Of a stretch of 64,000 bases of DNA, positions 18,086-63,525 are shown piece by piece; position 1 is the first letter of the stretch; every line of letters starts with the position of its first letter. Origin of the DNA: Sediminibacterium magnilacihabitans (GTDB lineage Bacteria; Bacteroidota; Bacteroidia; Chitinophagales; Chitinophagaceae). The notes beneath the pieces are model-generated. The model saw nothing but the letters and a program-made list of their open reading frames with translations, did no database searches and was not told the origin of the DNA. Where the stretch lies: the NCBI GenBank assembly GCA_002973575.1, contig PVEQ01000001.1, forward strand, positions 62,001 through 126,000. The letters are read 5' to 3'. The position numbers and the translations under genes are program-made.

Positions 18086-18107
18086 CTTTTTTAAATTTAT
18101 TTGGTTA

Positions 18108-19888: not shown

Positions 19889-19889
19889 A

Positions 19890-20507: not shown

Positions 20508-20570
20508 CACTCACATTTTTCCAACGCACCTGAAGTAAACAATACAAATTAGATTCCAATACAACTTTTT

Positions 20571-21788: not shown

Positions 21789-21818
21789 ACTCACAACTTT
21801 AAAAGTGGAAAAACTATT

Positions 21819-23083: not shown

Positions 23084-23109
23084 ATACCTACTTTTGAATT
23101 AATTAAAGA

Positions 23110-23227
23110 CTAAAACATGCTCAAAAAGCTTTCCAGATAATCATTGAATGGGGTAATAGCCGTTGTGCTACCCAGGTATACTTCTAAAATTCCAGGCAAC
23201 ACATTTGGATAAATTAATAATGATGGT
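23110..23227 (-). other. Short open remnant between VirB5-like paralogs
   Basis: A minus-strand stretch open for about 38 codons, ending in a stop at 23110-23112, with coding-like composition (it ends NDYLESFLSMF). An in-frame stop lies directly upstream and there is no ATG, so it cannot be a whole gene. It may be the tail of a tra gene cut when the opposite-strand cargo gene entered, or chance. Confidence 0.25.
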
Positions 23228-23232
23228 TAAGT

Positions 23233-23240
23233 TATATTTG
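23233..23240 (+). promoter_or_regulatory. -7 promoter element for the GyrI-like pseudogene
   Basis: TATATTTG, a perfect TAnnTTTG match, 54 bp before the ATG at 23294. A TTTG lies 25 bp upstream, longer than the usual spacing. Confidence 0.4.
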
Positions 23241-23293
23241 AAGAAACTATTACGCCAAGCGTTGAGGTAAACAAGTATTTTCTGCACCTTTAA

Positions 23294-23736
23294 TTGCCTG
23301 AAATGGATATTGAAATTATAACTGACACTTTATTTTTACAACTTCATGGTTTTGGAGGCATTGCTTTTAATAAGGATTATGCAAGTACTGCTTTTAAGCT
23401 AAGCGGAAAAATGTGGGATTGTGTAAAATCGCAAGAATTGAAACATAAAGGAAAAAATATTTGGGTTTATGAAAACGACGACAAAGTTTTTGCAGGTATC
23501 GAGTTAGAAGTTAATCAGCCGACTAATAGTTTGCTTGAAGAAAAGAAAATTAAATTGTCAAAATATGCTCGTTTCACATAGGCCCATACAATCTTATAAA
23601 ACAATCAGGTCAGATGATGACGAAGCAACTTGCAATGAAAGGATTTGAGGTTGAATTACCGTATATCGAAATTTATGGACACTGGACAAAGGATGAAAGT
23701 AAATTAGAAACTGAACTTTTAATGACCTTAAAGTAG
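23294..23736 (+). pseudogene. GyrI-like small-molecule-binding protein, frameshifted
   Basis: The first 95 codons (23294-23581) encode the N-terminal half of a GyrI-like/AraC effector-binding domain (GIAFNKDYASTAF, KNIWVYENDDKVFAGIELE) and stop at TAG 23579. Reading on in another frame from about 23575 gives HIGPYNLIKQSGQ, KGFEVELPYIEIYGHW and ends at TAG 23734, which completes the same domain. A small deletion around 23575-23578 explains both halves. The gene is on the opposite strand to the tra operon and has its own promoter, so it is probably a later insertion that is decaying. A sequencing error would also fit. Confidence 0.75.
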
Positions 23737-23786
23737 CTCATAATAATAATAATAATAATTGCACACAACCTAAACTGTGTAAAAAA

Positions 23787-24467
23787 TTACCTCTGAATCC
23801 CATATAGCCTTTTCACATATTCAATTTCACCCTGCTCGCTTGCCCGTTGTATACTCAATATCTTATTCTGATTATTGAAATCTTTCAAGTCAACATATTG
23901 CTGTTCCAGATTGTCAGAAACAGTATTAATAATTTCCAACCGTTTGGCATCACTCATTTGTGTAGCGAAAGCATTCACTACTAAAAACAACTGGTCAATA
24001 CTTTTCAGGCTTTCATCCATCATGCCGGAATAGATATTATACATATAATCCAGTTCTTCAGAAGTAAAATTCTTGTCTTGTTTAAACAAAGCCCAGGCAC
24101 CCTTGTATTCGTTTACCATCTGTACCTGCCGTTCTATAATATCCTTTACCCGGTTATAATAAGCCAGGGCAGCTTTCACTTTCCATAGTTCCTTAAAATA
24201 ATCATCATAGAGTTTTCGCTGTTTTTCCACCCAGTCCTTAATCTCATTCAGCTTTAGCTGGCTCATTTTATTCTCCAATGTCTTTTGGGCATTTTGCAGC
24301 CAGATAGTTTTGTTCTGCAGCCGCTGCATTTGAAGGTCAAGTGCTTTAATAACTTTCTTTACTGCCGCTTTAATGATGTCTGCAATGGGTACCTGAGCTT
24401 TGGTTTCCTGTATTGGCAAAAACATACAGCACATACTCAATCCCACAACTGCCAATAATCTTTTCAT
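23787..24467 (-). CDS. VirB5-like exported helical protein, paralog 3
   Basis: A 226-residue paralog, the longest of three. It has a signal peptide (ending near ETKAQ), then an extra N-terminal coiled coil (LDLQMQRLQNKTIWLQNAQK) before the shared plan: YYNRVKDIIERQVQMV, FTSEELDYMYNIYSGMMDE, MSDAKRLEIINTVSDNLEQ and QRASEQGEIEYVKRLYG. The extra coil makes it the likeliest ancestor-type DUF4141/TraI protein, with the two shorter ones as duplications. It lies 6 bp after the lipoprotein gene. Confidence 0.7.
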   Translation of the reverse strand: MKRLLAVVGLSMCCMFLPIQETKAQVPIADIIKAAVKKVIKALDLQMQRLQNKTIWLQNAQKTLENKMSQLKLNEIKDWVEKQRKLYDDYFKELWKVKAALAYYNRVKDIIERQVQMVNEYKGAWALFKQDKNFTSEELDYMYNIYSGMMDESLKSIDQLFLVVNAFATQMSDAKRLEIINTVSDNLEQQYVDLKDFNNQNKILSIQRASEQGEIEYVKRLYGIQR

Positions 24468-24473
24468 ATACTG

Positions 24474-24854
24474 TTAATTTATTTTTTTAAACTTATTCGT
24501 TCCGTCAAATAAAACCTTTTCTTTTACATCAAAAGAATAATGGTCTAAGGTTTCTGCCTCTTCCAGCAATTTGGTTTCGGCATTGTAAATTCCTGATGTT
24601 TCTTTCACCTTATATTCAGGAACATTGGCTTCGCCTTCTACCTGCCGGATATAATGCCAACGATTTTGAATTTTAAATTCCTTTGCTGCCAGATTCTGGA
24701 CAGAGATAACGAGAGTGTCAAACTCTTTTCCAAATTCATTTTGCCCGGTTCTTATATAAGTGCCGGGTATAAATTCCATAATTTCGTCTTTACCGCTTGT
24801 GTTGCAGCTTGAAATAATTACTGTTGCGGAAAGGATAAGCAATGTTATTTTCAT
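24474..24854 (-). CDS. Element-encoded lipoprotein
   Basis: A 126-residue protein with a signal peptide and lipobox (VIISSC), followed by a beta-rich body with GTYIRTGQNEFGKEFDTLVI and KIQNRWHYIRQVEGE. It sits between traG and the VirB5-like genes, 4 bp after traG. An outer-membrane entry-exclusion or channel-tip role is possible by position, but I do not recognise the family. ATG 24854 is chosen; the longer frame from 24884 would overlap traG and lose the signal peptide. Confidence 0.6.
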   Translation of the reverse strand: MKITLLILSATVIISSCNTSGKDEIMEFIPGTYIRTGQNEFGKEFDTLVISVQNLAAKEFKIQNRWHYIRQVEGEANVPEYKVKETSGIYNAETKLLEEAETLDHYSFDVKEKVLFDGTNKFKKIN

Positions 24855-24858
24855 ACTA

Positions 24859-27303
24859 TCAGTTTTTGGAGTGAATAATTTCATCGGCTAAAGCCTTAAT
24901 TCCTTTTTCAATATCTCCTCCAAACTTTGATGCATAAGCCTGTACTTTCACTTTTTCTTTTTCCTCTGTTGTATAAGCCAGGTACTCTTCCGGCGATACT
25001 TCTGTACGATAAACTTTGCTTAACACACCACCAAGAGAAATAAAGACCTCTTTATATTTTTTAATTGGGTCATTGGCTTTGTTGATAGACAAGACCAATG
25101 CCTTTTCTTTTTCTGTTAATCCAAGCAATTCCTGTATCTGATCAAACTTGTTTTGATACTTGCTCTGATCTAACAATATCTTGCAATCACTATTGTTGAT
25201 AATCGCCTGCTTTACCACTGGCGATGAGATAATATCTTCCACTTCCTGAGTCACAACAATAGCTTCACCAAAGAACTTTCTGACTGTTTTAAACAAATAC
25301 TTGATATATTCTGCCATGCCTTCTTTAGCAATTGCTTTCCAAGCTTCTTCAATCAGTATCATTTTGCGAATACCTTTCAGTTTTCTCATTTTTGAAATAA
25401 ACACTTCCATGATGATGATAGTTACCACAGGAAACAGAATCGGATGGTCCTTAATATTATCCAGCTCAAATACAATAAACCTTTGCTGTAACAAATCAAG
25501 ATTTTCTTTTGCATTTAGCAAGTAATCAAATTCACCGCCTTTGTAGTATGGCCGCAGCACATACAAAAAATTGGACACATCAAAGTCTTTATCCTTTACA
25601 TTGTCACCTTTCAGCACATTTACAAAATCATCTTTCAGGAAATCATAAAAACTGTCAAAGCAGGGAAAGATGGTTTTATCACTTTCTACTTTCTCAAAAT
25701 ATAATTGCAGGGCATTTGACAGCGCTACATATTCACTGCGGTTGAAGGTTTCATTATCCTTTTTCCAAAGAGCCAATAACAGCGTTTTTATACTTTCCTT
25801 TTTCTCCGTATCAAGATTGTCCCCTTCACCAATATAAAAAGGGTTGAATTTAATGGGTTTGGTTTCAGAATAAGTGAAATAGTATCCATTCACCATATCG
25901 CATAGCCCCTTGTAGCTATGACCGACATCTACCAACACAATATGTGTGCCTTTTTCATAGTAACTCCTCACCATATGGTTGGTAAAGAAAGATTTTCCAC
26001 TACCAGACGGGCCCAAAATGAACTTGTTTCTATTGGTACAAATGCCTTTGTCCATCGGTTCATCCGAAATATCCACATGGAGTGGTTTACCAGTTAGCCG
26101 GTCGCCAAGGCGTATCCCGATAGGGCTAAGAGACGACCGGTAGTTCGTTTCCAAATTAAAAAAACAACAAGCCTGCGGACTGAACGTATCAAAAGTGTCA
26201 TTCATGGGAAAGTCGGCGGCATTGCCAGGGATGCCTGCCCAGAATATCTGCGCCGAGCCTTCAGTTTCCATTTTGGGTGTGGCATCCATTTGGGTCAAAG
26301 CTGAAGAGCATAGATTACGAATGTTTTTTAATTCATCCCTGTTGTTTGTCCATGCCAGAATATTAAAATGAGCTTTAACTGGAAGCCGTTGTTCACTAAT
26401 GGCTTCATTCAGAAAATCATCAGTCGCCTGTTTGCTTATAGCATTTTCTCTGCTGTAAGCTGAAAGTGATTGAAGCCGCAATCTTTTACTTTCCAGCTTC
26501 TGCATTGTTTTCTGCACATCCTCAATAAACACATACTGGTTATAGATGTGATTGCAGGAGAGCAACTGACCGATTGGTGATGCAAACCCTACACTGAATT
26601 TTGTTTTATCAGTGGAGTACTTGTCATAGTTAATCCGTGAGCCGCATAATGCTGGTACGAATTCTGCATCAGCCATCGTGTAAAGCTGACAATGGTGTTC
26701 ACCAATTTTCCATTCTGGCTTAAATTCAATATCCCGGAGAATAACTCCATCATTACCGAGATTCAGATAGTTCAGAACAACATCGGCCAGTAATTCATTT
26801 GTCAGCATTTTCATTGATACAAATCCGCTATCGGCGAGAATCTTTTGAAATTGCCCAACATGGTTCACGAAATCATGGAAGTATTTAGGTTGTAATGTTT
26901 CTTCAGGTACTATTGTCCTGCGCAGAAGGCTGCTGAAAATTGAAGAACCTAATTTACGATTTGCCGGCTTTTTTGTAAGCATGATATAACAGCGATGGTC
27001 CAAATAAGGACGTTCATTAAAGAACCGGTCGCTGCTTCTGGTAAGAAAACTATTGTCTTCCTGAATAAACGAAGGTTTATACTTTGCTTCAGTAAACCAA
27101 TCCTGCTTGTGCAGCACACTATTAACGGGTAAAACTTTTATAGCTTTTATCCAGGCATGATGAAATGCTTCGTATTCGTCATTGCTCATTGTAAACAGTT
27201 CTGGTAATTGCACATTAAATACAACTGTTACATCACCCATTTTGGAAAGGATGGCATTATTTTCAATAGAATAAACCGGCAGTATCTCATTTAGATTTTT
27301 CAT
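24859..27303 (-). CDS. traG: Conjugation ATPase TraG (VirB4-like)
   Basis: An 814-residue ATPase that powers the mating channel from the cytoplasmic face of the inner membrane. The N-terminal 400 residues match the TraG/VirB4 regulatory part (SIENNAILSKMGDVTVVF, SVGFASPIGQLLSC). Walker A is GPSGSGKS at 431-438 and Walker B is MILIEEAW at 648-655, followed by a VRKFFGEAIVVTQEVEDI stretch with a conserved Gln. Length and motifs are those of an intact enzyme. It overlaps traF by 17 bp and precedes the lipoprotein gene by 4 bp. Confidence 0.93.
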   Translation of the reverse strand: MKNLNEILPVYSIENNAILSKMGDVTVVFNVQLPELFTMSNDEYEAFHHAWIKAIKVLPVNSVLHKQDWFTEAKYKPSFIQEDNSFLTRSSDRFFNERPYLDHRCYIMLTKKPANRKLGSSIFSSLLRRTIVPEETLQPKYFHDFVNHVGQFQKILADSGFVSMKMLTNELLADVVLNYLNLGNDGVILRDIEFKPEWKIGEHHCQLYTMADAEFVPALCGSRINYDKYSTDKTKFSVGFASPIGQLLSCNHIYNQYVFIEDVQKTMQKLESKRLRLQSLSAYSRENAISKQATDDFLNEAISEQRLPVKAHFNILAWTNNRDELKNIRNLCSSALTQMDATPKMETEGSAQIFWAGIPGNAADFPMNDTFDTFSPQACCFFNLETNYRSSLSPIGIRLGDRLTGKPLHVDISDEPMDKGICTNRNKFILGPSGSGKSFFTNHMVRSYYEKGTHIVLVDVGHSYKGLCDMVNGYYFTYSETKPIKFNPFYIGEGDNLDTEKKESIKTLLLALWKKDNETFNRSEYVALSNALQLYFEKVESDKTIFPCFDSFYDFLKDDFVNVLKGDNVKDKDFDVSNFLYVLRPYYKGGEFDYLLNAKENLDLLQQRFIVFELDNIKDHPILFPVVTIIIMEVFISKMRKLKGIRKMILIEEAWKAIAKEGMAEYIKYLFKTVRKFFGEAIVVTQEVEDIISSPVVKQAIINNSDCKILLDQSKYQNKFDQIQELLGLTEKEKALVLSINKANDPIKKYKEVFISLGGVLSKVYRTEVSPEEYLAYTTEEKEKVKVQAYASKFGGDIEKGIKALADEIIHSKN

Positions 27304-47341: not shown

Positions 47342-47929
47342 ATGAAAAAGACATATTATTTATTGACGATGGCATTTAGTATGCAAATATTCACTCAGAA
47401 TTTATTTGCCCAAAAAGACAGTAGTGGTGTGTATATAACGGCAGATGATTTCAAAAACAGGAAATTATCTTACGCAATTAATTATAAAACTGAAAAACAT
47501 AAGATAAACACTTATGTTCTTTTTAAAGGCAATACTATCAGAGTAAAGCACCAGGGTATTACTTACGATTTGAAGAAATCAGAAACTTATGGCTACAGGG
47601 ATACAAAAGGCCGGGAATACAGGTTCATTGGTGAAGCTGAATATACCATACTTAATCCTGGTGAGCAATTGTTGCTGTATGTTTATCAGCACCCGGCACA
47701 TTCAGGAAAAGAAGCAGATAAATATGCCCCGGCTTATTATTTTACTACAGATGCCGCCGGTATGCCACAGGCATTGACTAAGGAAAATCTCAAAGCCGCT
47801 TTTCCTGAATATCATAAGTTTCATGATGCTTTGGACGAAAACTTTAAGAATAATAAAGAACTGTACGTTTATGACAGGTTTCATAAAATGTATAAGCTGA
47901 GCTGGCTTTTAAAAAACAACATCAATTAA
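47342..47929 (+). CDS. Exported protein, paralog of the gene at 50398
   Basis: A 195-residue protein with a signal peptide (ending near LFAQK). It shares a plan with the 192-residue protein at 50398: DSSGVYITADDFKNRKL, then TYGYRDTKGREYRF, an ILNPGEQLLLYVY region, LTKENLKAAFP and a final YDRFHKMYKLSWLL. The function is unknown, but two such genes flank the metal and respiratory cargo. It lies 45 bp after the five-repeat gene, probably in one message. Confidence 0.55.
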   Translation: MKKTYYLLTMAFSMQIFTQNLFAQKDSSGVYITADDFKNRKLSYAINYKTEKHKINTYVLFKGNTIRVKHQGITYDLKKSETYGYRDTKGREYRFIGEAEYTILNPGEQLLLYVYQHPAHSGKEADKYAPAYYFTTDAAGMPQALTKENLKAAFPEYHKFHDALDENFKNNKELYVYDRFHKMYKLSWLLKNNIN

Positions 47930-47946: not shown

Positions 47947-48549
47947 ATGACCACTACCTGTTTGCAGATAAAGAATATGTGTTGCGACCGATGCATTGAA
48001 GTTGTGCGGAACTTGCTTCGGGAAGCTGGATATAACCCGGTTTCTGTTGTTGTAGGGGAAGCATCATTTGTGCAAAATTTATCAGTGAATGATGTGGAAA
48101 GCATCAGGCGTAAATTGAAAACTAAAGGGTTTGCTATTGCTGAAAAAAGTAACGAGAAGATTACAGTGAAAATTCATGCTGCCATTTGCGGGTATCTTAA
48201 TCAGATGGCAAACAAAGGAGCTATGCTTCAAAAACTATCCGCATACCTTTCAGAGACGCTTCACCAAAGTTATTACCAACTGAGCCGGAGGTTTACCGAA
48301 ACTACAGGGGTAACCATTGAAAAATATTTTATCTGTCTCAGAATGGAAAAGGCAAAGGAATTACTCATGCATGATGAATTAAGTATTGCCGAAATAGCGT
48401 GGCAGTTAGGTTACAGCACTCAGCAAATTTTTAGCACCCAATTTAAAAAAGAAACCGGCAAAACACCAGGTGAATACCGGCTTAAACCGGTGCCACAAAG
48501 AATCCACTGGGATAAATTATTATGGCAACATTTCAAACAAAATGCTTAA
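47947..48549 (+). CDS. HMA-AraC fusion regulator 2
   Basis: A 200-residue paralog of the regulator at 38357. The N-terminal HMA-type domain has MCCDRC (residues about 10-15), and the C-terminal AraC DNA-binding domain shows LSIAEIAWQLGYSTQQIFST and TGKTPGEYRLKP. The first Cys of the loop differs (CC instead of VC), so the metal or thiol response may differ from the first copy. It follows the 195-residue gene by 18 bp. Confidence 0.8.
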   Translation: MTTTCLQIKNMCCDRCIEVVRNLLREAGYNPVSVVVGEASFVQNLSVNDVESIRRKLKTKGFAIAEKSNEKITVKIHAAICGYLNQMANKGAMLQKLSAYLSETLHQSYYQLSRRFTETTGVTIEKYFICLRMEKAKELLMHDELSIAEIAWQLGYSTQQIFSTQFKKETGKTPGEYRLKPVPQRIHWDKLLWQHFKQNA

Positions 48550-49447: not shown

Positions 49448-50389
49448 ATGGCATGCGGTAACAATTGTACATGCAACCGGAACGAATCCGGTAACCAGGA
49501 TAATTCCAGGAGAGATTTTCTTTTGAAAGGATTAATGGGTGGCATTGGCGCTGCTTTTCTCAGCGGCTGTTCAGGCAACACAGGTTCCAAGTCAGAAAGT
49601 GGTGACAAAGTGAATGTATTAACCCACGATGGGAAATTGGTTGCAGTAGATAAATCACAGGTCGCCAATTTTAAACCACACATATCAGAGGAAGATGTAC
49701 GCAAAGGGATTCCCGGTAAAAAATTTGTAATGGTAATTGACCTGGCAAAATGTGATGGCTGTGGTAAATGCACCAAGGCCTGCAATAAAATGCACTACCT
49801 GCCTTCCAACAAAGAATGGATTGAAGTATTGGAAATGCAGGATTCACCAGAGGTATCACCCTATTATTTTGTAAAGCCTTGTATGCATTGTGATAATCCG
49901 CCGTGCACAAAAGTATGTCCGGTGGATGCCACTTTCAAAAGAGAGGATGGCATTGTAGCAATAGATACAGACCGTTGCATCGGTTGCCGTTTTTGTATGG
50001 CTGCATGTCCCTATTCAGTTCGCTTATTTAACTGGACAGAGCCGGTTAAGCCCAATATTATTGAAACAACTCCTGCTGCAGAAAATGTTTTTCAAAGTAA
50101 AAAAGGTTGTGTTGAGAAATGCGACTTCTGTCCGCACATGGCAAGGGAAGGAAAGTTACCTGCCTGTGTTACCGGCTGCCCTATGAATGCCATCTGGTTT
50201 GGTGATGCCAATGAAGATGCAGTAACCTGTTACGATGGGACAACAGCAAAATTATCTCAATTGCTGGAAGATGGAGGTGCTTATCGTTTCCTGGAAGAGT
50301 TGGGTACCGAACCGAGGGTGTATTATTTACCGCCCGCTAACCGAACCTATGATGCTAAAGAAATAAAAATTGAGAAAGAAGGAAAATAA
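49448..50389 (+). CDS. Tat-exported four-cluster FeS protein (NrfC/DmsB-like)
   Basis: A 313-residue periplasmic electron-transfer subunit. A twin-arginine motif SRRDFLLKG (20-28) and a lipobox-like LSGC41 suggest a Tat lipoprotein. Four cluster motifs follow: Cys102/105/108/112, Cys145/148/153/157, Cys177/180/183/187 and a last set near 225/228/240/244. NrfC/DmsB/PsrB subunits relay electrons between a catalytic molybdopterin subunit and a NrfD-type quinol subunit. Only the NrfD partner is present here. A short Cys-rich extension (CGNNCTC) precedes the Tat signal. Confidence 0.88.
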   Translation: MACGNNCTCNRNESGNQDNSRRDFLLKGLMGGIGAAFLSGCSGNTGSKSESGDKVNVLTHDGKLVAVDKSQVANFKPHISEEDVRKGIPGKKFVMVIDLAKCDGCGKCTKACNKMHYLPSNKEWIEVLEMQDSPEVSPYYFVKPCMHCDNPPCTKVCPVDATFKREDGIVAIDTDRCIGCRFCMAACPYSVRLFNWTEPVKPNIIETTPAAENVFQSKKGCVEKCDFCPHMAREGKLPACVTGCPMNAIWFGDANEDAVTCYDGTTAKLSQLLEDGGAYRFLEELGTEPRVYYLPPANRTYDAKEIKIEKEGK

Positions 50390-50397
50390 ATCAAAGA

Positions 50398-50976
50398 ATG
50401 TGTATGCAAAGGGTTGTTAGTATAATAATATTTATCGCCATTTTCAATTTTCCTGTTAAGGGACAAATTGATAGCACCGGCATATATAAAAATGCTGATG
50501 ATTTTGTGGCAAAAAAATTGACTTTCGGCGGTAATCGCAAAATGGACAGACACAGGCTGTTACTGAATAATTTTTTTAACAGGCCATTTATTACAATCCG
50601 GCATAATGATACGGCATATAATATTTCAAGAAATGAAATTTACGGGTATCGCCTGCAAAACGGGGCAGAATACCGCATAGTCAACCGTCACGACTTACGG
50701 ATTTTGAATGCCACAGAGTATATTATTATATACCGGAGAGATGTAACTCATCCTCCTTCTGGCAAAACCAATGTTACAAATTACTATTTCAGTATCGGGC
50801 CTTACTCATCTGTACAAAAACTAACAATTAAAAATCTCAAAAAGGCTACTTCTTCAAGTCAACTGTTTCTTGAAGAGATAGACGGTCTTTTTAAATACAA
50901 TACAGAGTTGGCTACTTATGATAAGCAACACAACATGTATGTAATTAACTGGATTTATAGAAAAAGCATGGAATAA
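50398..50976 (+). CDS. Exported protein, paralog of the gene at 47342
   Basis: A 192-residue protein with a signal peptide (ending FPVKGQ). It follows the same plan as the 47342 product: DSTGIYKNADDFVAKKL, EIYGYRLQNGAEYRI, a hydrophobic IIIYRRDV-type strand, and a final YDKQHNMYVINWIY. It lies inside the respiratory operon, 8 bp after the FeS subunit and 38 bp before the NrfD-like gene, so an envelope role with that complex is likely. Function unknown. Confidence 0.6.
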   Translation: MCMQRVVSIIIFIAIFNFPVKGQIDSTGIYKNADDFVAKKLTFGGNRKMDRHRLLLNNFFNRPFITIRHNDTAYNISRNEIYGYRLQNGAEYRIVNRHDLRILNATEYIIIYRRDVTHPPSGKTNVTNYYFSIGPYSSVQKLTIKNLKKATSSSQLFLEEIDGLFKYNTELATYDKQHNMYVINWIYRKSME

Positions 50977-51014
50977 ACAATAATACAATTGCTCACTATA
51001 ACAAAAATACAATT

Positions 51015-52394
51015 ATGGAAAAGCTGAATCCTGAAATAAAAAATCAAATTGAAAACGAACTGCTGGGCACAGTGGGCAGGCGTTACAGGCAGGAAACATT
51101 TTGGGTATTTTTTCTTGGGGCGATTTGTATTGGGGGAACTGTAGCCTGGATTATACAATTGCGAAAAGGATTAGGTGTTACAGCCATGAGGGATTATGTT
51201 TCCTGGGGGTTATATATTTCGTTGCTGTTCTTTTTTGTTGGGGTGAGTTTGATTGGCGCATTAGTGTCATGTGTGCTCCGTATGTCAGGTGCTAAATGGC
51301 GTTATCCTCTTATTCGTATTGCAGAAGCTGTTACATTATCCGCTATCTTCTTCGCAGGGTTTATGCCAGTATTGGATATGGGTCGGCCTGAACGTTTATA
51401 CTTTCTTATTACACATGGCCGTATTCAATCACCCATTTTATGGGATGTTATTGCGATTGCAACCTACTTTATCGGGAGTCTAATTTATTTCTACCTGCCA
51501 TTGATACCTGATTTAGCTATCATGCGTGACAAGCTCACTGATGCACCTAAATGGAGAAAGAAATTATGGCGATGGCTGGCAATGGGTTGGGAAGATAATT
51601 TGCTGCAGCGGCGGTTATTAAAAAAAGCAATGCTCATTTTATGCATTGTGATTTTACCAGTAGCTATATCCGTACATACTATCAGCGCCTGGTTAATTGC
51701 ATTTACATTAAGGCCCGGCTGGAACTCAACTATTATGGGTCCCTACTTTGTATTTGGTGCTTTAATGGCTGGTACGGCTATTATGATTTTAATTATCGCC
51801 AAACTTCGTCATGGATACAGGCTGGAGCATTATTTAACTCCAAAGCATTTTAATAACCTGGCAAAAATATTACTGGCATTAACAGCTTTTTATCTATATC
51901 TCAATATTAATAAATATGGTGTGCCTGCATATAAAATGGCAAAGGAGGAAAGAGCAGTATTGGAAGATTTATTTTATGGCAAAAATGCTTTCTTTTTCTG
52001 GTTTACACAGATTGCAGGCCTCGTACTACCAATAATTATTTTATCATTTAAACGATTCAGGCAGTCCATCAAATGGGTTGTAGCTGCATCAGTAATGGTA
52101 CTGCTTGGCGCATTAATCAACCGCTATCTTATTGTAGTTCCAAATATGCTCCATCCGTTTGTACCTATTCAGCATGCCCAGCATGGATATGCCACCTATA
52201 ATCCAACACTCATTGAATGGACAATTACCGCTTCTTCGTTAGCAGGGTTTGTACTGTTAATTATACTGCTGTTTAAACCCTTCCCTGTTATTACGATGTG
52301 GGAAGTAACGGAAGAAGTAGAAAAACGTGGAGAAAAAGAAATTGGTGTTGAAAATATTATAACCCTTCAAAATATTCCAACTCATGCAAGCTAA
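51015..52394 (+). CDS. NrfD/PsrC-like quinol-interacting membrane subunit
   Basis: A 459-residue membrane protein of the NrfD/PsrC family with about ten hydrophobic segments. Marks are GLYISLLFFFVGVSLIGALV, FMPVLDMGRPERLYFLITHG (the conserved Arg/Pro block) and HTISAWLIAFTLRPGWNSTI. It would oxidise or reduce menaquinol in the inner membrane and pass electrons to the FeS subunit encoded two genes upstream. Its stop overlaps the next gene by 11 bp. Confidence 0.88.
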   Translation: MEKLNPEIKNQIENELLGTVGRRYRQETFWVFFLGAICIGGTVAWIIQLRKGLGVTAMRDYVSWGLYISLLFFFVGVSLIGALVSCVLRMSGAKWRYPLIRIAEAVTLSAIFFAGFMPVLDMGRPERLYFLITHGRIQSPILWDVIAIATYFIGSLIYFYLPLIPDLAIMRDKLTDAPKWRKKLWRWLAMGWEDNLLQRRLLKKAMLILCIVILPVAISVHTISAWLIAFTLRPGWNSTIMGPYFVFGALMAGTAIMILIIAKLRHGYRLEHYLTPKHFNNLAKILLALTAFYLYLNINKYGVPAYKMAKEERAVLEDLFYGKNAFFFWFTQIAGLVLPIIILSFKRFRQSIKWVVAASVMVLLGALINRYLIVVPNMLHPFVPIQHAQHGYATYNPTLIEWTITASSLAGFVLLIILLFKPFPVITMWEVTEEVEKRGEKEIGVENIITLQNIPTHAS

Positions 52395-52935
52395 TAAAAT
52401 ATACAACTTTATATTCTTGTCACTCCTGCTGACAACAACCGTAGCTGCGCAGGATGAAAAAATAAACGGAAACATTGCGCTGCAGATGGGCTCCAACGAC
52501 AGCATGTATGTTGTAACAGCTACGGTTACCAACATTGCTACTCAACAACCAGCAAAAAATGTTGAATTGACCTTTTATATACAGCGAACATTCGGGTTAA
52601 TGAAAGTAGCGGATGGCACCACTGATAGTACAGGCATTATAACAGCAGAATTTCCATCGGATATCCGTGGGCATGACTCCTCAAAAAATTTCATACTGAT
52701 TGCCAAAGTAGAAGAAAGCGATGTAATGAAGGATACAGCCTTCCAGGTTTCTATTCAATCAAAATTTCCTTTTCCGGCTGATAAACCCATACCCCGTTCC
52801 ATAGCTGGTGCTCATGCACCGTGGTGGCTTGTAATCACATTCATAGCAGCAGTGGGTGCTGTGTGGCTATTGTTTGTGTATGTATTATACCTGGTTTACC
52901 GAATTAAAAAAGCATCTATAAAAATCATTTCCTAA
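52384..52935 (+). CDS. Anchored periplasmic protein of the respiratory operon
   Basis: A 183-residue protein with a signal peptide (ending near TVAAQ), a beta-sandwich body (MYVVTATVTNIATQQPAKNV) and a C-terminal membrane helix (about residues 146-172, WWLVITFIAAVGAVWLLFVY). It overlaps the NrfD-like gene by 11 bp and precedes the cytochrome gene by 17 bp, so it is probably a complex subunit or assembly factor. No cofactor motif was seen. Confidence 0.6.
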   Translation: MQANKIYNFIFLSLLLTTTVAAQDEKINGNIALQMGSNDSMYVVTATVTNIATQQPAKNVELTFYIQRTFGLMKVADGTTDSTGIITAEFPSDIRGHDSSKNFILIAKVEESDVMKDTAFQVSIQSKFPFPADKPIPRSIAGAHAPWWLVITFIAAVGAVWLLFVYVLYLVYRIKKASIKIIS

Positions 52936-52952
52936 CAGTAAAAATTACAATT

Positions 52953-53372
52953 ATGAAAGTATTAGTTCAAAAGATTATCCGGAAAAAAATGATGACTGTC
53001 TCATTGCTGCTACTGGTTGCAATTGCAGGCAGTGCATTCTTCCAGCAAAAAGAATGGAAAGCCCCTGCCTCTGCTGATGCTAAAAAGAATCCGCTTACGG
53101 CTGACGCAACAACCCTTGCTGCTGGTAAAGCAGTGTACGTAAAAGAATGCCAATCCTGCCATGGCAAAAAAGGTAAAGGCGACGGGCCTTCAGCAAAGGA
53201 TTTAGATATACCTGCAGGAGATTTTACAAAGGCAATCACACAAAGCCAAAGTGATGGAGCCCTTTATTGGAAAATTTCAGAAGGAAGGAAGCCAATGCCA
53301 TCTTTCAAAAAGAAACTAAATGAAACACAGATATGGCAATCTGTAGTTTATATGAGAACATTAAAACAATAA
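52953..53372 (+). CDS. Monohaem cytochrome c
   Basis: A 139-residue protein. An N-terminal helix (about 12-30) acts as signal or anchor, then one class I cytochrome c domain with haem motif CQSCHGKKGKGDGPSA and a distal Met in RKPMPSFKKKL. It would take electrons from the NrfCD-type subunits in the periplasm. It lies 3 bp before the porin gene and 17 bp after the anchored protein. Confidence 0.88.
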   Translation: MKVLVQKIIRKKMMTVSLLLLVAIAGSAFFQQKEWKAPASADAKKNPLTADATTLAAGKAVYVKECQSCHGKKGKGDGPSAKDLDIPAGDFTKAITQSQSDGALYWKISEGRKPMPSFKKKLNETQIWQSVVYMRTLKQ

Positions 53373-53375
53373 TTT

Positions 53376-54539
53376 ATGAAAAAGAAAAAATTAATTCAAT
53401 GTGCCGGTCTGTTGTTATTTTCAGCAACAGCATTTAGCCAACAATACAACCAGGAGAATATAGACAGCCTGATACAAAGTAAAGTACAGACACAGGTTGC
53501 AAGGAACAGCAAGTTTCTAATTTCAGGTTATACAAATATGACTGCCCGGTTTTCAAAGGAGCAATCCTCTTTCTCCAACATAGGTTTTGTGCCTATTCTA
53601 TTATGGAAGCCACACCAGAATATTTTAGTTGAAGCAGAATTGGAAACAGGGTTGGAAGGAAGTGAAACCAGCATTGAATTGGGCTATGCTGATGTCTCTT
53701 TTTTCTTAAACAAATACCTTACTGTACGTACGGGTAAATTCATTTCACCATTTGGTATTTTCCAGGACAGGCTTCATCCATCATGGATAAATAAGTTACC
53801 GACATTCCCAGTTGGCATTGGTGAGGATGAACTGGGTGTAGGCCCAACATCCGAAGTAGGAATTGACTTCCGGGGAGGAATACCCCTTGGCTCATCAAAA
53901 ATGAATTACAGTGTTTTCCTGTCTAACGGGGCACAATTAATTACAGACCAGGGAATACCTTCTAAACAAGGAACCCTCAGTTATGGTAATGCGGATGCTA
54001 TCTCCAAAAAATTAACCGCTGGCGGAAGGCTTGGTTTGCTTCCATTTTCAAACTCGTCGTTGGAATTAGGTGTTTCGTTCCGAAGCGGTAATGTAGGTGA
54101 TAAAAACTCCGCTTATAAAAACGTAGGCGCTAAGATGTATGCATTTGACCTCACTTATGTAAAGCAACTTGATTTTATCAAAGGAGTGTTTGATGTAAAA
54201 GCACAATGGAATAAAGTGAATGTGGATAAGGCTGATTACATTGACCCTGATGACCCGACAGGAAATACCATATACACTTTTGATAATAAAAGAAATTCAT
54301 TTTTTACACAGGGAGCCTACAGGCCAAGTATGGCACAAAGTAAGTTTCTGAAGAAAACAGAACTGGTATTCCGCTATGCTGGTTTCAATCCACCGGATGG
54401 TGCTAAGGATTTGGCGAAAATAAAGCAATACACTTACGGCATAAACTATTGGGTAAACTGGCGAACAGCAGTGAAGCTTGCTTATCAAAACCAAAAAAAT
54501 GACAACGCCTTCCTGGTACAATTTGCCGTAGGCTTTTAA
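53376..54539 (+). CDS. Outer-membrane porin-like protein
   Basis: A 387-residue protein with a signal peptide (ending ATAFSQ) and a beta-barrel pattern throughout, ending in FLVQFAVGF with a terminal Phe, the usual outer-membrane signal. Blocks such as LTVRTGKFISPFGIFQDRLH resemble phosphate-selective porins (OprO/P type). It belongs to the operon with the cytochromes, and could bring in the acceptor substrate or place the electron path near the outer membrane. Confidence 0.8.
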   Translation: MKKKKLIQCAGLLLFSATAFSQQYNQENIDSLIQSKVQTQVARNSKFLISGYTNMTARFSKEQSSFSNIGFVPILLWKPHQNILVEAELETGLEGSETSIELGYADVSFFLNKYLTVRTGKFISPFGIFQDRLHPSWINKLPTFPVGIGEDELGVGPTSEVGIDFRGGIPLGSSKMNYSVFLSNGAQLITDQGIPSKQGTLSYGNADAISKKLTAGGRLGLLPFSNSSLELGVSFRSGNVGDKNSAYKNVGAKMYAFDLTYVKQLDFIKGVFDVKAQWNKVNVDKADYIDPDDPTGNTIYTFDNKRNSFFTQGAYRPSMAQSKFLKKTELVFRYAGFNPPDGAKDLAKIKQYTYGINYWVNWRTAVKLAYQNQKNDNAFLVQFAVGF

Positions 54540-54559
54540 TAAAATTTAAAACATTTTAT

Positions 54560-54823
54560 ATGAAACGTAATACAATAATAATAGCAGTTGCAATGATACT
54601 TACAACCGGCTTACTAATCGCCAGTTGTGTATCAACCAAAATAACCGATAAAAGCGGCAGCCAGTTGTGGAGTGAAAACTGCCAGCGATGCCACAACACT
54701 CCGCCCAGCTCTGCTTTTACCAATACACAGTGGGAAGTAATTAATACCCACATGCGGCAAAGGGCCATGCTTACGGACGATGAGTATAAGAAGATAACAG
54801 AGTTTATGCAGGCAGGCGAATAA
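54560..54823 (+). CDS. Small haem-binding lipoprotein
   Basis: An 87-residue protein. The signal peptide ends in a lipobox (LIASC), and one haem c motif, CQRCHNTPP, follows, with a possible distal Met in HMRQRAML. It is the second cytochrome of the cluster and lies 20 bp after the porin gene. Being lipid-anchored, it may sit on the outer membrane inner leaflet and hand electrons across. Confidence 0.75.
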   Translation: MKRNTIIIAVAMILTTGLLIASCVSTKITDKSGSQLWSENCQRCHNTPPSSAFTNTQWEVINTHMRQRAMLTDDEYKKITEFMQAGE

Positions 54824-57477: not shown

Positions 57478-58887
57478 ATGAAAACAACAAACGAAATCAT
57501 ATTGCAATCATTGGGAGCAGCTGAAACGGTAACAGGTTCCAAGCATTTGTTACGAACTCCTGAATTAAATATACTGGTTGATTGTGGCCTTTTTCAGGGT
57601 ATAAAATCATTGCGAATGAAAAACCGTGAGGAATTACCCGTGCACCCCGGTGATATTGATGTGCTCTTGCTAACACATGCACATCTTGATCACTGCGGGT
57701 ACATTCCCCTTTTTGTAAAAAAAGGATTCAGAGGTAAAATCTATATGACGCCTCCTACGAAAGACCTGACAGAAATTATTTTATACGACAGTGCCAAAAT
57801 ACAAGAAGAGGATGCAGAAAAAGCCAATCAGGAAGGTTATTCCAAACATAAACCGGCATTACCTCTTTACAAAACCGAAGATGTTGACTTTGCAATAAGT
57901 CATTTTGAAACGGTAGAGCACAGTTCAGCAATTCAGTTATCGCCCCATATCAGCTTTCAATTCAGAAAAAATGGTCATATCCTCGGCAGCGCCTGTGTTC
58001 AATTGAATTGCTTTGATAAAACCATTGTTTTTTCAGGCGATATTGGCCGTTATCAATCTGATTTCTTGTTAGCACCGGCAAACATGAGTAAAACGGATTA
58101 TGTAATTATGGAATCAACTTACGGAGACAGATTGCATAAAGGAGATCCTGCTGAACAACTGGCGGCGGTAATCAATGAAGCAGTGGATCATCATGGCACT
58201 ATACTGATACCCAGTTTTGCCGTAGGCCGGGCACAGGAGATCATGCACATTCTAAATAAACTCAAAAAGGAAAATAGAATTCCACATTGGTTACCGGTAT
58301 TTCTTGATAGCCCAATGGCTGCTGATGCAACGGAAATTTTATGTAACTACCCAAAATGGCACAAGTTAAAGCACGACGAATGTATGAGTGTTTGTAAAGA
58401 TGTAGTCATCAACAGGGATTGGCACAATACAAAAGATATTATTCACAAACATGGAAGCAAGATTGTGATTTCCGCCAGTGGTATGCTCACAGGTGGCCGT
58501 GTGCTGGAATACATGAAACATTTGACTCCGCATGAAAATAATATTATCCTGCTAATCGGTTACCAGGCTGAAGGAACAAGAGGCCGGGCATTGCAAAACA
58601 AGGCACATGAAGTAAAAATTCATGGTAAATATTATCCCGTAAAAGCAAGAGTTGTTGAAATATCAGGCCTTTCTGCCCATGCTGACCAATCAGAGTTGAT
58701 AGAATGGCTAAAAAGCTTTCAGCAATTACCACTGAAAATCTTTTTAGTGCACGGTGAGCCATCAGCTCAGGAAGTATTAAGAGTAAAGATTCAGGATGAA
58801 TTAAAAATTCCTGCACACATACAGCAACAAAATCAGGCAATCACTTTATTTAATACCAACGTTTATGCAAACGCAACATCACTTTAA
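57478..58887 (+). CDS. MBL-fold beta-CASP RNase-like protein
   Basis: A 469-residue metallo-beta-lactamase-fold nuclease. The zinc motif HAHLDH is at residues 67-72, followed by the beta-CASP signature ISASGMLTGGRVLEYM and a C-terminal RNA-specificity motif with GLSAHADQSELIEWL. Proteins of this CPSF73/YhfI-like class cut or degrade RNA. It overlaps the phosphorylase by 23 bp, so RNA breakdown may be coupled to nucleotide salvage. Confidence 0.88.
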   Translation: MKTTNEIILQSLGAAETVTGSKHLLRTPELNILVDCGLFQGIKSLRMKNREELPVHPGDIDVLLLTHAHLDHCGYIPLFVKKGFRGKIYMTPPTKDLTEIILYDSAKIQEEDAEKANQEGYSKHKPALPLYKTEDVDFAISHFETVEHSSAIQLSPHISFQFRKNGHILGSACVQLNCFDKTIVFSGDIGRYQSDFLLAPANMSKTDYVIMESTYGDRLHKGDPAEQLAAVINEAVDHHGTILIPSFAVGRAQEIMHILNKLKKENRIPHWLPVFLDSPMAADATEILCNYPKWHKLKHDECMSVCKDVVINRDWHNTKDIIHKHGSKIVISASGMLTGGRVLEYMKHLTPHENNIILLIGYQAEGTRGRALQNKAHEVKIHGKYYPVKARVVEISGLSAHADQSELIEWLKSFQQLPLKIFLVHGEPSAQEVLRVKIQDELKIPAHIQQQNQAITLFNTNVYANATSL

Positions 58888-60415
58888 CGAAACAGATTTA
58901 AAAGAAGGCCATATTCATAAGCTTGCTTTTAAAAATCTGGGCATTGATACTAACCAGGAATTGGTAGTGTTCATGCCAGCCAGTTGTCATGTTTGTAAGT
59001 CTGAAGGTTTTCAGGCACTCACCCGGGTAACCGTTTCTTTGAATGGTAAAAGTATTATCGCTGCATTGAATGTTACAAGTGATGGGCTGCTGGCTGAAGG
59101 CGAAATCAGTTTGTCAGAAAGCGCAGCCAAAAAACTGGCAGTTCAGGAAGGTGATTTATTGAGTGTTTCTCATACCGAACCTTTACATTCAGTAGCTCAT
59201 GTAAGAGCTAAGTTGTATGGAAGTATTCTGGACCAACAGGCATATAATGAAATAATCCATGACATAGTTGACGGGAAGTATTCCAATATTTTATTGTCGT
59301 CCTTTGTGTCCGCTTGTTCAGGCAATAATATGAACATGGACGAAATCCGGTACCTGACCCATGCCATGGTTGATGCAGGCAATAAACTCTACTGGGGGAA
59401 AGGTGTTATAGCAGACAAGCATTGTGTTGGCGGCTTACCGGGTAACCGTACCACAATGATAGTAGTACCAATTATTGCTTCGCTGGGTATTATCATACCA
59501 AAGACTTCTTCAAAAGCAATTACTTCACCTGCCGGTACTGCCGATACTATGGGGGTATTGACCAATGTGAATTTAAGTGTACAGGAAATCCGAAAGGTTG
59601 TAGAAAAGGAAAACGGATGTATTGCCTGGGGCGGAGCTGTGAAACTTAGCCCTGCGGATGATTTGATAATTCGGGTGGAAAAAGCGTTGGATATTGACAG
59701 CGAAGGGCAAATGATTGCTTCTATCCTGTCTAAGAAAGCTGCTGCAGGCTCAACACATTGTTTGATTGACATACCAGTGGGGCCAACAGCAAAAGTGAGA
59801 AGCATGGATAGCGGAGTACAATTAGCATTAAGATTAAAAGAAGTTTCAGAATTCATTGACATCAAAACACAGATAATATTTTCCGATGGCTCTCAACCTG
59901 TAGGCTATGGAATTGGGCCGGCCCTTGAGGCAAGAGATGTGCTGCATGTATTGCAATGTAAAAAAGATGCTCCCAAAGATTTATATGAAAAATCAATCCT
60001 GATTGCAGCAGAGCTTGTACGCCTCGCCTGGGATATGCCAAAAGATACTGCACGGGAGATTGTAACAGAAAAACTAAAAAGCGGAGAGGCATTTAAAAAA
60101 TTCATTGCCATCTGTGAAGCGCAGGGCGGATTTAAAGAACCTGGGAAAGCCCGATATACAAAAACAATTGAAGCTGACTTTACCGGTACCATTCATGAAA
60201 TAAACAACAGGAAAGTGGCACAAGTGGCAAAGCTTGCTGGCGCACCGGATACACCGGAAGCAGGAGTTGATTTTCGTATTCAGTTAAAAGAAAAAGTGGA
60301 AAGTGGACAACCATTGTTTACGATTCATGCCAATTCACCCGGTGAACTGGAGTACGCCTATGAATACTACAAGAATAATAGCGAGGATATCATTAAATAT
60401 TTAATCAATGAATAA
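58865..60415 (+). CDS. Long-form thymidine/AMP phosphorylase family protein
   Basis: A 516-residue phosphorylase. The N-terminal about 90 residues are the extra domain found on archaeal AMP phosphorylases and absent from short DeoA proteins. The catalytic core shows IADKHCVGGLPGNRTTMIV and ITSPAGTADTMGV, the family's phosphate-binding region. The enzyme would split a nucleoside or nucleoside monophosphate with phosphate. Thymidine or AMP is possible; the N-terminal domain favours AMP-type substrates. It overlaps the genes on both sides (23 and 8 bp). Confidence 0.85.
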   Translation: MQTQHHFNETDLKEGHIHKLAFKNLGIDTNQELVVFMPASCHVCKSEGFQALTRVTVSLNGKSIIAALNVTSDGLLAEGEISLSESAAKKLAVQEGDLLSVSHTEPLHSVAHVRAKLYGSILDQQAYNEIIHDIVDGKYSNILLSSFVSACSGNNMNMDEIRYLTHAMVDAGNKLYWGKGVIADKHCVGGLPGNRTTMIVVPIIASLGIIIPKTSSKAITSPAGTADTMGVLTNVNLSVQEIRKVVEKENGCIAWGGAVKLSPADDLIIRVEKALDIDSEGQMIASILSKKAAAGSTHCLIDIPVGPTAKVRSMDSGVQLALRLKEVSEFIDIKTQIIFSDGSQPVGYGIGPALEARDVLHVLQCKKDAPKDLYEKSILIAAELVRLAWDMPKDTAREIVTEKLKSGEAFKKFIAICEAQGGFKEPGKARYTKTIEADFTGTIHEINNRKVAQVAKLAGAPDTPEAGVDFRIQLKEKVESGQPLFTIHANSPGELEYAYEYYKNNSEDIIKYLINE

Positions 60416-61307
60416 TTGTGTTTTATTCAGCATACCTGGCAATGAGCTGCTGTGCCACTCCTTAACGGAGCTATTGCATGTGCAGCAGGGAGAAGCCATC
60501 ATCCGGCATTTCCCTGACGGAGAAACCTATGTGAAAGTTATTTCAAACGTGTATGAGAAAGAAGCAATAATTGTTTGTTCACTGCATCACCCTGACAATA
60601 AAATATTGCCACTATACTTTCTGGCAAAAACGCTGAAAGAATTCCGTGCTTCTTCCATAACGCTGGTAGCTCCTTACCTGGCTTACATGAGACAGGATAA
60701 AAGGTTTACAGATGGCGAATGCATCAGTTCTGATTTATTTGCAAGGCTTATTTCCGGTTTTGTTGATAAGCTAATTACCATTGACCCCCACTTACACAGG
60801 CGAACATCTCTAAATGAAATCTATTCAATCCATACCTCTGTTTTACATGCGTCTCCGCTGATTTCAAAATGGATTAAGGAAAATATACAAAACGCTGTAT
60901 TGATAGGCCCCGATAGTGAAAGTGAGCAATGGGTAAGTAAAGTAGCAGAAGACGCCGGGGCGCCTTTTATTGTATTGGAAAAAATTCGTAAAGGTGACCG
61001 TAATGTACAGGTATCCGTACCGCAAGTAGAAAAATATCAAAACCACGTGCCGGTTCTTGTAGATGATATCATATCTACTGCACATACAATGATTGAAACC
61101 ATCGGGCATCTGAAAAAGGCTGACATGAAACCGCCAATATGTATCGGTATTCACCCCGTGATGGCATCAAGAGCCTATGACAAATTATTAAAGGCCGGAG
61201 CAGAAAAAATAATCACATGCGATTCAATCATACATCCTTCAAACGGAATTAAAGTAGATGAATTGCTGGCGGATGAAATATGTAAAAATTGTTTTGTGGT
61301 AGATTAA
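60408..61307 (+). CDS. Ribose-phosphate pyrophosphokinase
   Basis: A 299-residue PRPP synthetase. It would convert ribose-5-phosphate and ATP to PRPP plus AMP, or run the reverse. Marks are FPDGETYVKV, YLAYMRQDKRF, DPHLHRRTSL and the PRPP-binding loop VPVLVDDIISTAHTM. It is somewhat shorter than the usual 310-320 residues. The 8-bp overlap with the phosphorylase suggests a linked pathway. A housekeeping prs would be expected elsewhere on the chromosome, so this is likely an additional copy. Confidence 0.88.
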   Translation: MNNCVLFSIPGNELLCHSLTELLHVQQGEAIIRHFPDGETYVKVISNVYEKEAIIVCSLHHPDNKILPLYFLAKTLKEFRASSITLVAPYLAYMRQDKRFTDGECISSDLFARLISGFVDKLITIDPHLHRRTSLNEIYSIHTSVLHASPLISKWIKENIQNAVLIGPDSESEQWVSKVAEDAGAPFIVLEKIRKGDRNVQVSVPQVEKYQNHVPVLVDDIISTAHTMIETIGHLKKADMKPPICIGIHPVMASRAYDKLLKAGAEKIITCDSIIHPSNGIKVDELLADEICKNCFVVD

Positions 61308-61318
61308 ACGAAAGTTTT

Positions 61319-61810
61319 ATGAAATCTATAGAAAGAATAGAGATATATGATGCCACACCGGAAGATGTATTTAAGTGTATTGATAACCTTGGTGTAACCG
61401 GCACGCACATGACCAAATCGTCATGGATGATGATGGGCAGTAAACTGAAACTGGAGTATTTAACTGAACAGCATAATGGTTTGGGTACAAAATACAGATG
61501 GACAGGAAAAATGATGAGCATGACTATGGACTTTACAGTGGAAGTAACACAGTGGGTGGAAGGAAAGGAAAAAATATGGGAAACAGTCGGGGAATCAAAA
61601 ATGATTATTTATTCATGGTTTCAGATGCATTTAACTACTCCTCCTATGTTTAACAAAGGAACGAAGGCAGAGCTTTCCATCACTTATAAAAAACCAAAAG
61701 GGTTACTCAACAATATTCTTTGTTTTCTTTTTGCGGACTGGTATTGCAATTGGTGTTTAAAGAAAATGCTGGGTGACGCAAAAAAGACCCTTAATGCTAT
61801 GAAATCATAG
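61319..61810 (+). CDS. SRPBCC-family protein
   Basis: A 163-residue protein of the SRPBCC/START-like hydrophobic-pocket fold: ERIEIYDATPEDVFKCIDNL, KYRWTGKMMSMTMDF and TVEVTQWVEGKEKIWE, with a C-terminal helix LGDAKKTLNAMKS. The ligand is unknown. ATG 61319 is preferred over an earlier start. It follows prs by 11 bp and precedes the glycosidase by 26 bp. Confidence 0.7.
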   Translation: MKSIERIEIYDATPEDVFKCIDNLGVTGTHMTKSSWMMMGSKLKLEYLTEQHNGLGTKYRWTGKMMSMTMDFTVEVTQWVEGKEKIWETVGESKMIIYSWFQMHLTTPPMFNKGTKAELSITYKKPKGLLNNILCFLFADWYCNWCLKKMLGDAKKTLNAMKS

Positions 61811-61836
61811 TTCTCAACTTATTAAATCAGACGAAA

Positions 61837-63525
61837 ATGAAATCAATTAAAGATATAGAACTCTCTCCCAAACCCGGCAAAAAATACTGGAGAAATTGTC
61901 AACGGGAATGGAGAGAAGAATTCATTTACTTTTTGCTGGTTGACCGTTTTCACGACAGTAATAAAAGACATACCGTTGAATTTGAAAGCCGCCATCCGGG
62001 GTTTGGAGATGATGCTCAATTAACAAAACAATGTGGCGGTACGCTACGGGGCATTATTAATAATCTTGAATACATCAGGCATCTTGGATGCACGGCTATC
62101 TGGCTCAGTCCCGTCTTTAAGAATAACCCTGAATCCTATCATGGGTACGCTATTGAAAATTATTTGGAAATTGATGAACGCATTGGCACAAAAGCAGACC
62201 TTGAAGAATTGGTGGATTTAGCGCATACCTATGATATGCGGGTATTTCTGGATATAGTGCTGCATCATTCCGGTGATAACTGGTGTTATCCTGATGGACA
62301 AGAATACTATTATTATAACGGAATTGAATTCCCTTTTGGTGAATGGCGACACACAGACAAACCTGTTCCAATTGAATTAAGAAACCCTGCTTTATATGGA
62401 CGCAAAGGGCAAATCAAAAATTTTGACGCCTATCCGGAAACACAAGAGGGCGATTTCTTCAGCCTGAAAGCTTTTAAAAATGATGAATCAAGAGAAGCGA
62501 TTTACATTCAAAAAGTATTAACCGCTATTCATTGCTACTGGATAAGGGAAACAGATATTGATGGTTTCCGGCTGGATGCCGTAAAGCATATGGGTGAATT
62601 AGCCATCAGCCGCTTTTGTTCTTATGTAAGAGAGTATGCCTATTCTTTAGGAAAGAGAAATTTTTTCCTTTTTGGCGAGTTAGTTGGTTCAGATGCTATG
62701 GTAAGTAATTATGTAGGTCCTAAAACACTTACAACATACAATGACCAGAATCTTTATTATGGTTTGAATTCTGTTTTAGATTTTCAGTTACACTTTGCAT
62801 TAGAAGGCGTAATAAAAGGCAAAGATTCTCCGGGTAAATTAATTGAGCGATACACGGAGCTGCAGAAGAACGCATTGGACAGAGGCGAATATGGTGAATT
62901 CCTTGTTACATTTTTGGATAATCATGACCAGATTGGTGATGCCTTTAAACATCGTTTTGGTCATCACGCCGAACCGGAACAAATAATTGCCGGTATTGCC
63001 TTTTTGCTTTGCGCCCTTGGCACACCTTGTCTTTACTATGGAACAGAACAAGGTTTTGATGGATGTGGTAAAGGCGACCGTTACATCAGGGAATGTATGT
63101 TTAATCCAAACGATAAAACTACTAATGTACTCAATCAGCAATCTGAAATATATAAAGCAATAGCTTCCATTGCACGGTTCCGGAATGAAAGTAATGTACT
63201 GCGGTTTGGCAGAATGTTCATGAGGGAAACTTCGCAAAACGGCAGCCGCTTTCATCTTCCTGAATGTAATAAATGTATATTATCCTTTTCAAGAATATTA
63301 TATGACCAGGAGGTTGTATTTGTATATAACTCTTCTACATGTGATGTTAAAGAAGAACATATACTGGTGGATTGCCAGTTAAACCGGAACCGCAAATGGA
63401 TGAAGCCGGTATATGGGCTAAAAGCGAATGTGGAAATACTGCATTCGGAAAATCCAGCCAATCCGGTATGCTATATAAAGTTGTATTTAAGGCCGATGCA
63501 GTTGGTGATTTTAAAAAACTATTAA
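61837..63525 (+). CDS. GH13 alpha-amylase-family enzyme
   Basis: A 562-residue glycoside hydrolase of family 13, with no signal peptide, so probably cytoplasmic. The catalytic nucleophile is Asp247 in DGFRLDAVKHMG, the acid/base Glu281 in LFGELVG, and Asp364 in FLDNHDQIG. It would act on alpha-glucans, for example glycogen or maltodextrin, or serve as a glucosyltransferase. It is the last gene of the run before the ArsR-type regulator. Confidence 0.9.
   Translation: MKSIKDIELSPKPGKKYWRNCQREWREEFIYFLLVDRFHDSNKRHTVEFESRHPGFGDDAQLTKQCGGTLRGIINNLEYIRHLGCTAIWLSPVFKNNPESYHGYAIENYLEIDERIGTKADLEELVDLAHTYDMRVFLDIVLHHSGDNWCYPDGQEYYYYNGIEFPFGEWRHTDKPVPIELRNPALYGRKGQIKNFDAYPETQEGDFFSLKAFKNDESREAIYIQKVLTAIHCYWIRETDIDGFRLDAVKHMGELAISRFCSYVREYAYSLGKRNFFLFGELVGSDAMVSNYVGPKTLTTYNDQNLYYGLNSVLDFQLHFALEGVIKGKDSPGKLIERYTELQKNALDRGEYGEFLVTFLDNHDQIGDAFKHRFGHHAEPEQIIAGIAFLLCALGTPCLYYGTEQGFDGCGKGDRYIRECMFNPNDKTTNVLNQQSEIYKAIASIARFRNESNVLRFGRMFMRETSQNGSRFHLPECNKCILSFSRILYDQEVVFVYNSSTCDVKEEHILVDCQLNRNRKWMKPVYGLKANVEILHSENPANPVCYIKLYLRPMQLVILKNY

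Follow-up and report, generated by a model that had tools for sequence, protein, structure and literature searches.

What does an NrfC/NrfD-type protein pair do when it is encoded beside two cytochromes and a porin, with no catalytic subunit? The question is raised by an operon at 49448-54823 of the 64,000-nucleotide stretch of DNA analysed here (the window; G000:C1:62001-126000), which lies on a 687-kb contig of a 4.04-Mb genome. The initial annotation described six closely spaced genes and called them an orphan operon. All six are present, and the operon comprises seven plus-strand open reading frames (ORFs), the seventh encoding a 192-aa protein that had gone unnamed. These genes and the regulator upstream of them are as follows:

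47947..48549, + strand: AraC-type regulator with an HMA-like N-terminus, upstream of the operon (from a reading of the sequence; conserved in close loci)
49448..50389, + strand: Tat-exported, four-[4Fe-4S] FeS protein, NrfC/DsrO-like (Pfam Fer4_11, 3e-21; DsrO, 186 bits, cutoff 200)
50398..50976, + strand: 192-aa exported protein, function unassigned (no match in Pfam or NCBIfam)
51015..52394, + strand: NrfD-family membrane subunit (Pfam NrfD, 1.2e-30, 107 bits against a cutoff of 25.8)
52384..52935, + strand: periplasmic Ig/bMG3-like domain with a C-terminal membrane anchor (bMG3, 1.1e-5, below cutoff)
52953..53372, + strand: monohaem cytochrome c (Cytochrome_CBB3, 3.6e-13; one CxxCH)
53376..54539, + strand: outer-membrane beta-barrel porin, 16 strands predicted (model pLDDT 72)
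54560..54823, + strand: monohaem c lipoprotein (lipobox IASC; one CxxCH)

The spacings across the seven ORFs are, in order, +8, +38, -11, +17, +3 and +20 bp, in agreement with the short gaps and overlaps originally described. In a promoter and terminator scan, the promoter matches did not exceed those in shuffled sequence and were set aside. The FeS protein carries an SRRDFL Tat motif, a possible lipobox and 16 cysteines (102/105/108/112, 145/148/153/157, 177/180/183/187 and 225/228/240/244) in a pattern that fits four clusters. It is the putative acceptor of electrons from the NrfD subunit, itself a putative quinol-binding protein. The full four-cysteine motif of the first cluster occurs in only 22 of the checked FeS homologues, the window's included (114 ORFs); most others have lost the second cysteine of that cluster, which may alter it. 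The 192-aa ORF is found between the FeS and NrfD genes only in the window and at two further loci, L036 (identical with L070) and L037, and is therefore probably not a core member. Its product and that of 47342-47929 are related exported proteins of ~195 aa without a Pfam match, with more relatives in close loci and in L002.

The absence of a catalytic subunit held up over a much larger region. A whole-genome search with PF00384 detected no molybdopterin (MopB) gene on the entire 687-kb contig, the genome's single match lying on another contig (C5), and thereby ruled out a molybdoenzyme just beyond the window. Six genomes carry the closest copies, at NrfD identities of 83-97%, and four of them (G175, G024, G038 and G130) gave no match. 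One match above the cutoff was found in each of G102 and G145 (the latter more distant, 46%), and in G140 there was a weak match only, at its ActB. Furthermore, the MopB-like part of ActB had no counterpart among the ORFs of 103 non-redundant related loci. Membership of the complex iron-sulfur molybdoenzymes (CISM) was rejected because the MopB catalytic subunit is absent beside the FeS and NrfD genes. The proposal of a self-contained quinol-to-cytochrome module is thus supported: the contig and the nearest homologous loci are free of molybdopterin genes, as are four of the six closest genomes in their entirety. Neither of the findings that the initial annotation named as refuting it was made.

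The designation "orphan", with its implication of a missing partner, did not survive comparison with other genomes, in which the FeS-NrfD pair and its cytochrome recur as a complete unit with nothing lost. A search for the same gene order in other Bacteroidota, as the initial annotation proposed, recovered the six-gene order, minus the 192-aa ORF, in other genera at 83-97% NrfD identity. Of 197 genomes sampled from the same family, 56 (28%) encode relatives of the NrfD subunit at 36-97% identity, so that the module is not confined to the element carried in the window. Across the phylum it was found in ~14 of 392 genomes, with few of the oxidase-linked types described below among them. A scan of named genomes yielded 79 loci, mostly from Bacteroidota (Chitinophagaceae, Saprospiraceae, Lewinellaceae, Prolixibacteraceae and other Bacteroidales), the remainder coming from a few Acidobacteriota and Chloroflexota and one archaeal MAG. 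The FeS gene lies immediately 5' of the NrfD gene in 102 of 108 related copies, an arrangement that is therefore not due to chance. Directly after the NrfD gene stands an Ig protein gene (83 copies), a cytochrome c-Ig fusion (17) or a cytochrome gene (2), and a cytochrome or fusion is close by in 100 of the 108. In the Bacteroidales homologues the anchored Ig protein is fused C-terminally to the cytochrome in one polypeptide, as judged by alignment and a model of pLDDT 85.5, which shows that the separate Ig protein and cytochrome of the window form one unit. By gene order and content, the core of FeS protein, NrfD, Ig-anchored protein and cytochrome c is a complete, recurrent unit, widespread in Bacteroidota. 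The module is present in two copies in L044, L065, L077, L093 and L145 (at a single locus each) and in G175 (L036 and L054).

To which known system does this unit belong? Among solved structures, the window NrfD is nearest to ActC of alternative complex III (ACIII; 7.5e-50), and the cytochrome domain of a fused homologue gave a Foldseek match to ActE (6lod_E, 5.7e-6). Three residues of the window NrfD, S139, D144 and R370, align with S164, D169 and R395 of ActC; S139 and R370 are invariant in 21 NrfD sequences, and D144 is likewise invariant. They correspond to a quinone-site Ser, an Asp and a gatekeeper Arg of described role (PMC8076601, PMC13059093). The position of ActC H139 is occupied in window-type NrfDs by D121 (TMH2), as in PsrC and QrcD, and that of ActC Asp253 is not conserved (L227 in the window NrfD). 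The module also shares with ACIII a linkage to cytochrome c oxidases, and its FeS protein, with four clusters, can be compared with the C-terminal part of ActB. However, the pentahaem ActA, the MopB-like part of ActB and the second NrfD (ActF) are missing from the operon, which excludes it from ACIII; no ActD was seen, and the module consists of four genes, with an Ig-like anchor in place of the missing subunits.

DsrMKJOP supplies the best NCBIfam matches, DsrO for the FeS protein and DsrP for NrfD, but the window scores (186 of 200 and 100 of 350 bits) both fall under the equivalog cutoffs, and an identity as DsrO/DsrP was rejected. In relatives the DsrP score rises as high as 143 bits (DsrO/DsrP of 184/137 in Maribellus and 175/143 in L048). 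Pfam, NCBIfam and clustering, which were general rather than Dsr-targeted searches, surfaced no neighbours resembling DsrM, DsrK or DsrJ. QrcABCD and NrfCD likewise have an FeS/NrfD pair that passes electrons between quinones and periplasmic cytochromes, possibly without a molybdoenzyme, but their partner cytochromes are multihaem whereas that of the window module is monohaem, and the window proteins score far under the cutoffs for QrcC (152 of 400) and QrcD (71 of 570). What the window does contain is an NrfD subunit beside a four-cluster FeS protein, with the Ser and gatekeeper Arg conserved, as in NrfC/NrfD (PsrB/PsrC-type) dimeric modules. On these features, the window system is best classed as an NrfD-type dimeric module, neither ACIII nor Dsr. 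That NrfD dimers may act alone on soluble periplasmic proteins is an accepted possibility (PMC6303296), and what is surprising is therefore the monohaem/Ig partner, together with the oxidase linkage and an apparent role as sole complex III.

The oxidase linkage is chiefly a property of the fused forms. Genes for cbb3 or caa3 cytochrome c oxidases adjoin 10 of 17 fused types as against 2 of 91 others (Fisher p 3e-8, relatedness uncorrected), whereas an outer-membrane barrel stands beside none of the 17 fused types and 74 of the 91 unfused ones (Fisher p 8e-11, relatedness uncorrected). In a tree, 17 of 18 fused rows fall in a single clade, and the cases of fusion with oxidase are therefore not independent events. 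By clustering, the neighbouring genes are CcoI, CcoNO and CcoP for cbb3 and SCO, CoxA, Cox3, Cox4, Cox2 and CtaB for caa3; the assignment was confirmed in representatives by Pfam COX1, FixO, FixP, COX2 and SCO1.

What delivers electrons from quinol to these oxidases? Full-length ActB was found in 3 of the 16 fused-form genomes searched as Bacteroidales-type. In seven oxidase-linked genomes (loci L112, L120, L128, L137, L138, L141 and L147) there was neither a full-length ActB nor a PF00033 cytochrome b, a count that leaves out G198, G201, G197 and G210 on account of weak cytochrome b matches. Those in G198 and G201 were considered as bc1 and rejected, being ~910-aa cytochrome b/multihaem cytochrome c fusions; the matches in G197 and G210 are similar. 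Such fusions lie at L161 5974-8703 and L162 3017-5767, the former with a MopB-FeS-NrfD operon nearby. The genomes without a complex III are mostly MAGs of unstated completeness, so the missing ACIII and bc1 are suggestive rather than proof. These observations suggest that the module is the only candidate quinol:cytochrome c enzyme found in the seven oxidase-linked genomes. The window's own genome carries ACIII, and there the module would therefore be accessory.

We consider it likely that the core is a minimal quinol:cytochrome c oxidoreductase, akin to a stripped-down alternative complex III. Menaquinol would be bound near the periplasmic face and oxidised at NrfD. The four FeS-protein clusters would then relay its electrons to the monohaem cytochrome c, with the Ig/TM protein keeping this cytochrome at the membrane. 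The sequences themselves show the gene content, the conservation, the fusion, the oxidase linkage and the missing complex III genes in seven searched assemblies, whereas the direction of electron flow, the formation of a complex and any proton coupling are our inference. The reverse, Qrc-like direction, in which an external or periplasmic donor would reduce the quinone pool by way of the haem lipoprotein and cytochrome c, appears unlikely. It is favoured by the related FeS/NrfD pair of the Qrc dimer, which reduces menaquinone (PMC6303296), by the shared D121 of TMH2 in place of the His of ActC, and by partners, an outer-membrane barrel and a haem lipoprotein, that could import electrons. Yet the nearest matches, ActC and ActE, belong to a quinol-oxidising system, and the oxidase-linked homologues need a cytochrome c reductase, none other having been found in the seven genomes.

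A quinol:cytochrome c oxidoreductase might also be dedicated to denitrification, its cytochrome c feeding periplasmic N2O or NO-cycle reductases. NosZ is encoded in 39 of the 56 module-bearing genomes of the family and in 54 of the 141 others (Fisher p 8e-5, relatedness ignored), and in L060 nosZ lies less than 10 kb from the module. This association may, however, only mark facultative respirers. Moreover, nosZ is missing from 17 of the genomes with the module, including that of the window, and a dedicated nosZ partner was rejected as associated with the module yet not required. We regard this explanation as distinctly improbable.

Unfused versions in Chitinophagaceae, that of the window included, are usually tied to an outer-membrane barrel and a haem lipoprotein; in most the partners are a DUF5777 barrel, a CX4CH lipoprotein and a YceI or EB_dh protein. 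The triad of EB_dh/YceI protein, CX4CH lipoprotein and DUF5777 barrel recurs (L048 5435-7512, L060 12620-15438 and others) and is at times duplicated or set apart from the FeS-NrfD genes. The window version has a different porin and a CxxCH lipoprotein, and this pair is found again with NrfDs of other branches (L042, L076, L081 and L093). The porin model matches the general porins OmpF and OmpC (E about 1e-11).

A monohaem c protein together with a 16-stranded outer-membrane barrel is also the composition of Cyc2, but in Cyc2 haem and porin share one polypeptide, whereas in the window they are encoded by two separate genes. Cyc2 is defined by the motif AxPxFAR[QK][TY] upstream of CxxCH and by PxL downstream (PMC8406198). 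The haem lipoprotein of the window reads DKSGSQLWSENCQRCHNTPPSSAF; AxPxFAR[QK][TY] is absent from it, and with the genes separate the identity of a Cyc2 iron oxidase was rejected. In the window version of the oxidoreductase, the electrons might go to periplasmic carriers beside the 16-stranded porin at the outer membrane, the haem lipoprotein among them. Onward transfer to the lipoprotein is offered tentatively, as a guess from gene linkage, with the odds slightly against it. The earlier suggestion that electrons reach the outer membrane or a metal, also a guess, fits the recurrent pairing of barrel and haem lipoprotein.

The initial annotation placed the operon on a mobile element, and the wider sequence agrees. 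At 12640-27303 a minus-strand serine recombinase ORF overlaps a tRNA-Leu gene (12651-12735) and is followed by TraM, TraJ and TraG, a set that marks a conjugative element of the Bacteroides type. The tRNA-Leu tail is not repeated within 96 kb to the right, and the ends of the element were not located. From 38.5 kb to at least 103 kb the cargo is co-linear with that of a genome of another genus (G175), at 88-91% DNA identity over most of its length. ActB is only 63% identical between the two genomes, and the transfer is therefore recent. The cargo (window 38500-64000, L002, L003 and L153) encodes several CusA-type efflux systems, a P-type ATPase, HMA-AraC regulators, a multicopper-oxidase-like protein and heavy-metal-binding proteins. 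The window module is thus a recent arrival, carried as cargo by a conjugative element with many copper-resistance genes, and the HMA-AraC regulator upstream of the operon (47947..48549) is a candidate for metal-responsive control of the island. Genes for MBL-fold, AMP phosphorylase-like, PRPP synthetase-like and amylase-like proteins occupy 57478-63525, with a PPK2-like gene further right; the AMP phosphorylase of this block is 100% identical in G175.

Such surroundings raise the prospect that the module handles copper, for example by reducing or buffering the redox state of the metal at the outer membrane. The case rests on the dominance of CusA-type efflux, heavy-metal-binding, multicopper-oxidase-like and HMA-AraC genes in a cargo co-transferred with the module. 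Common cargo, however, is no proof of common function, and homologues elsewhere mostly adjoin oxidases or DUF5777 barrels, not metal genes, which makes this explanation very improbable.

The most far-reaching reading is twofold: that the core is a third kind of respiratory quinol:cytochrome c oxidoreductase, as yet unnamed, in addition to cytochrome bc and ACIII, with some Bacteroidales possessing no other, and that its mobile Chitinophagaceae form is wired to a two-part, single-haem outer-membrane conduit, made up of haem lipoprotein and 16-stranded porin, for electron exchange with the cell exterior. As a whole, this combined reading is unlikely to hold. No published description of the module was found in open PMC papers, to which the search was confined, and its novelty is therefore provisional. 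If the core is a minimal quinol:cytochrome c oxidoreductase, it would constitute a complex III of only four genes, without cytochrome b, Rieske protein or MopB-like subunit. In Bacteroidales whose cytochrome c oxidases have no recognised enzyme to supply them with electrons, it would close that gap in the respiratory chain. Finally, it would represent the NrfD quinol-oxidising unit in its smallest working form, and reveal how that unit spreads on conjugative elements.
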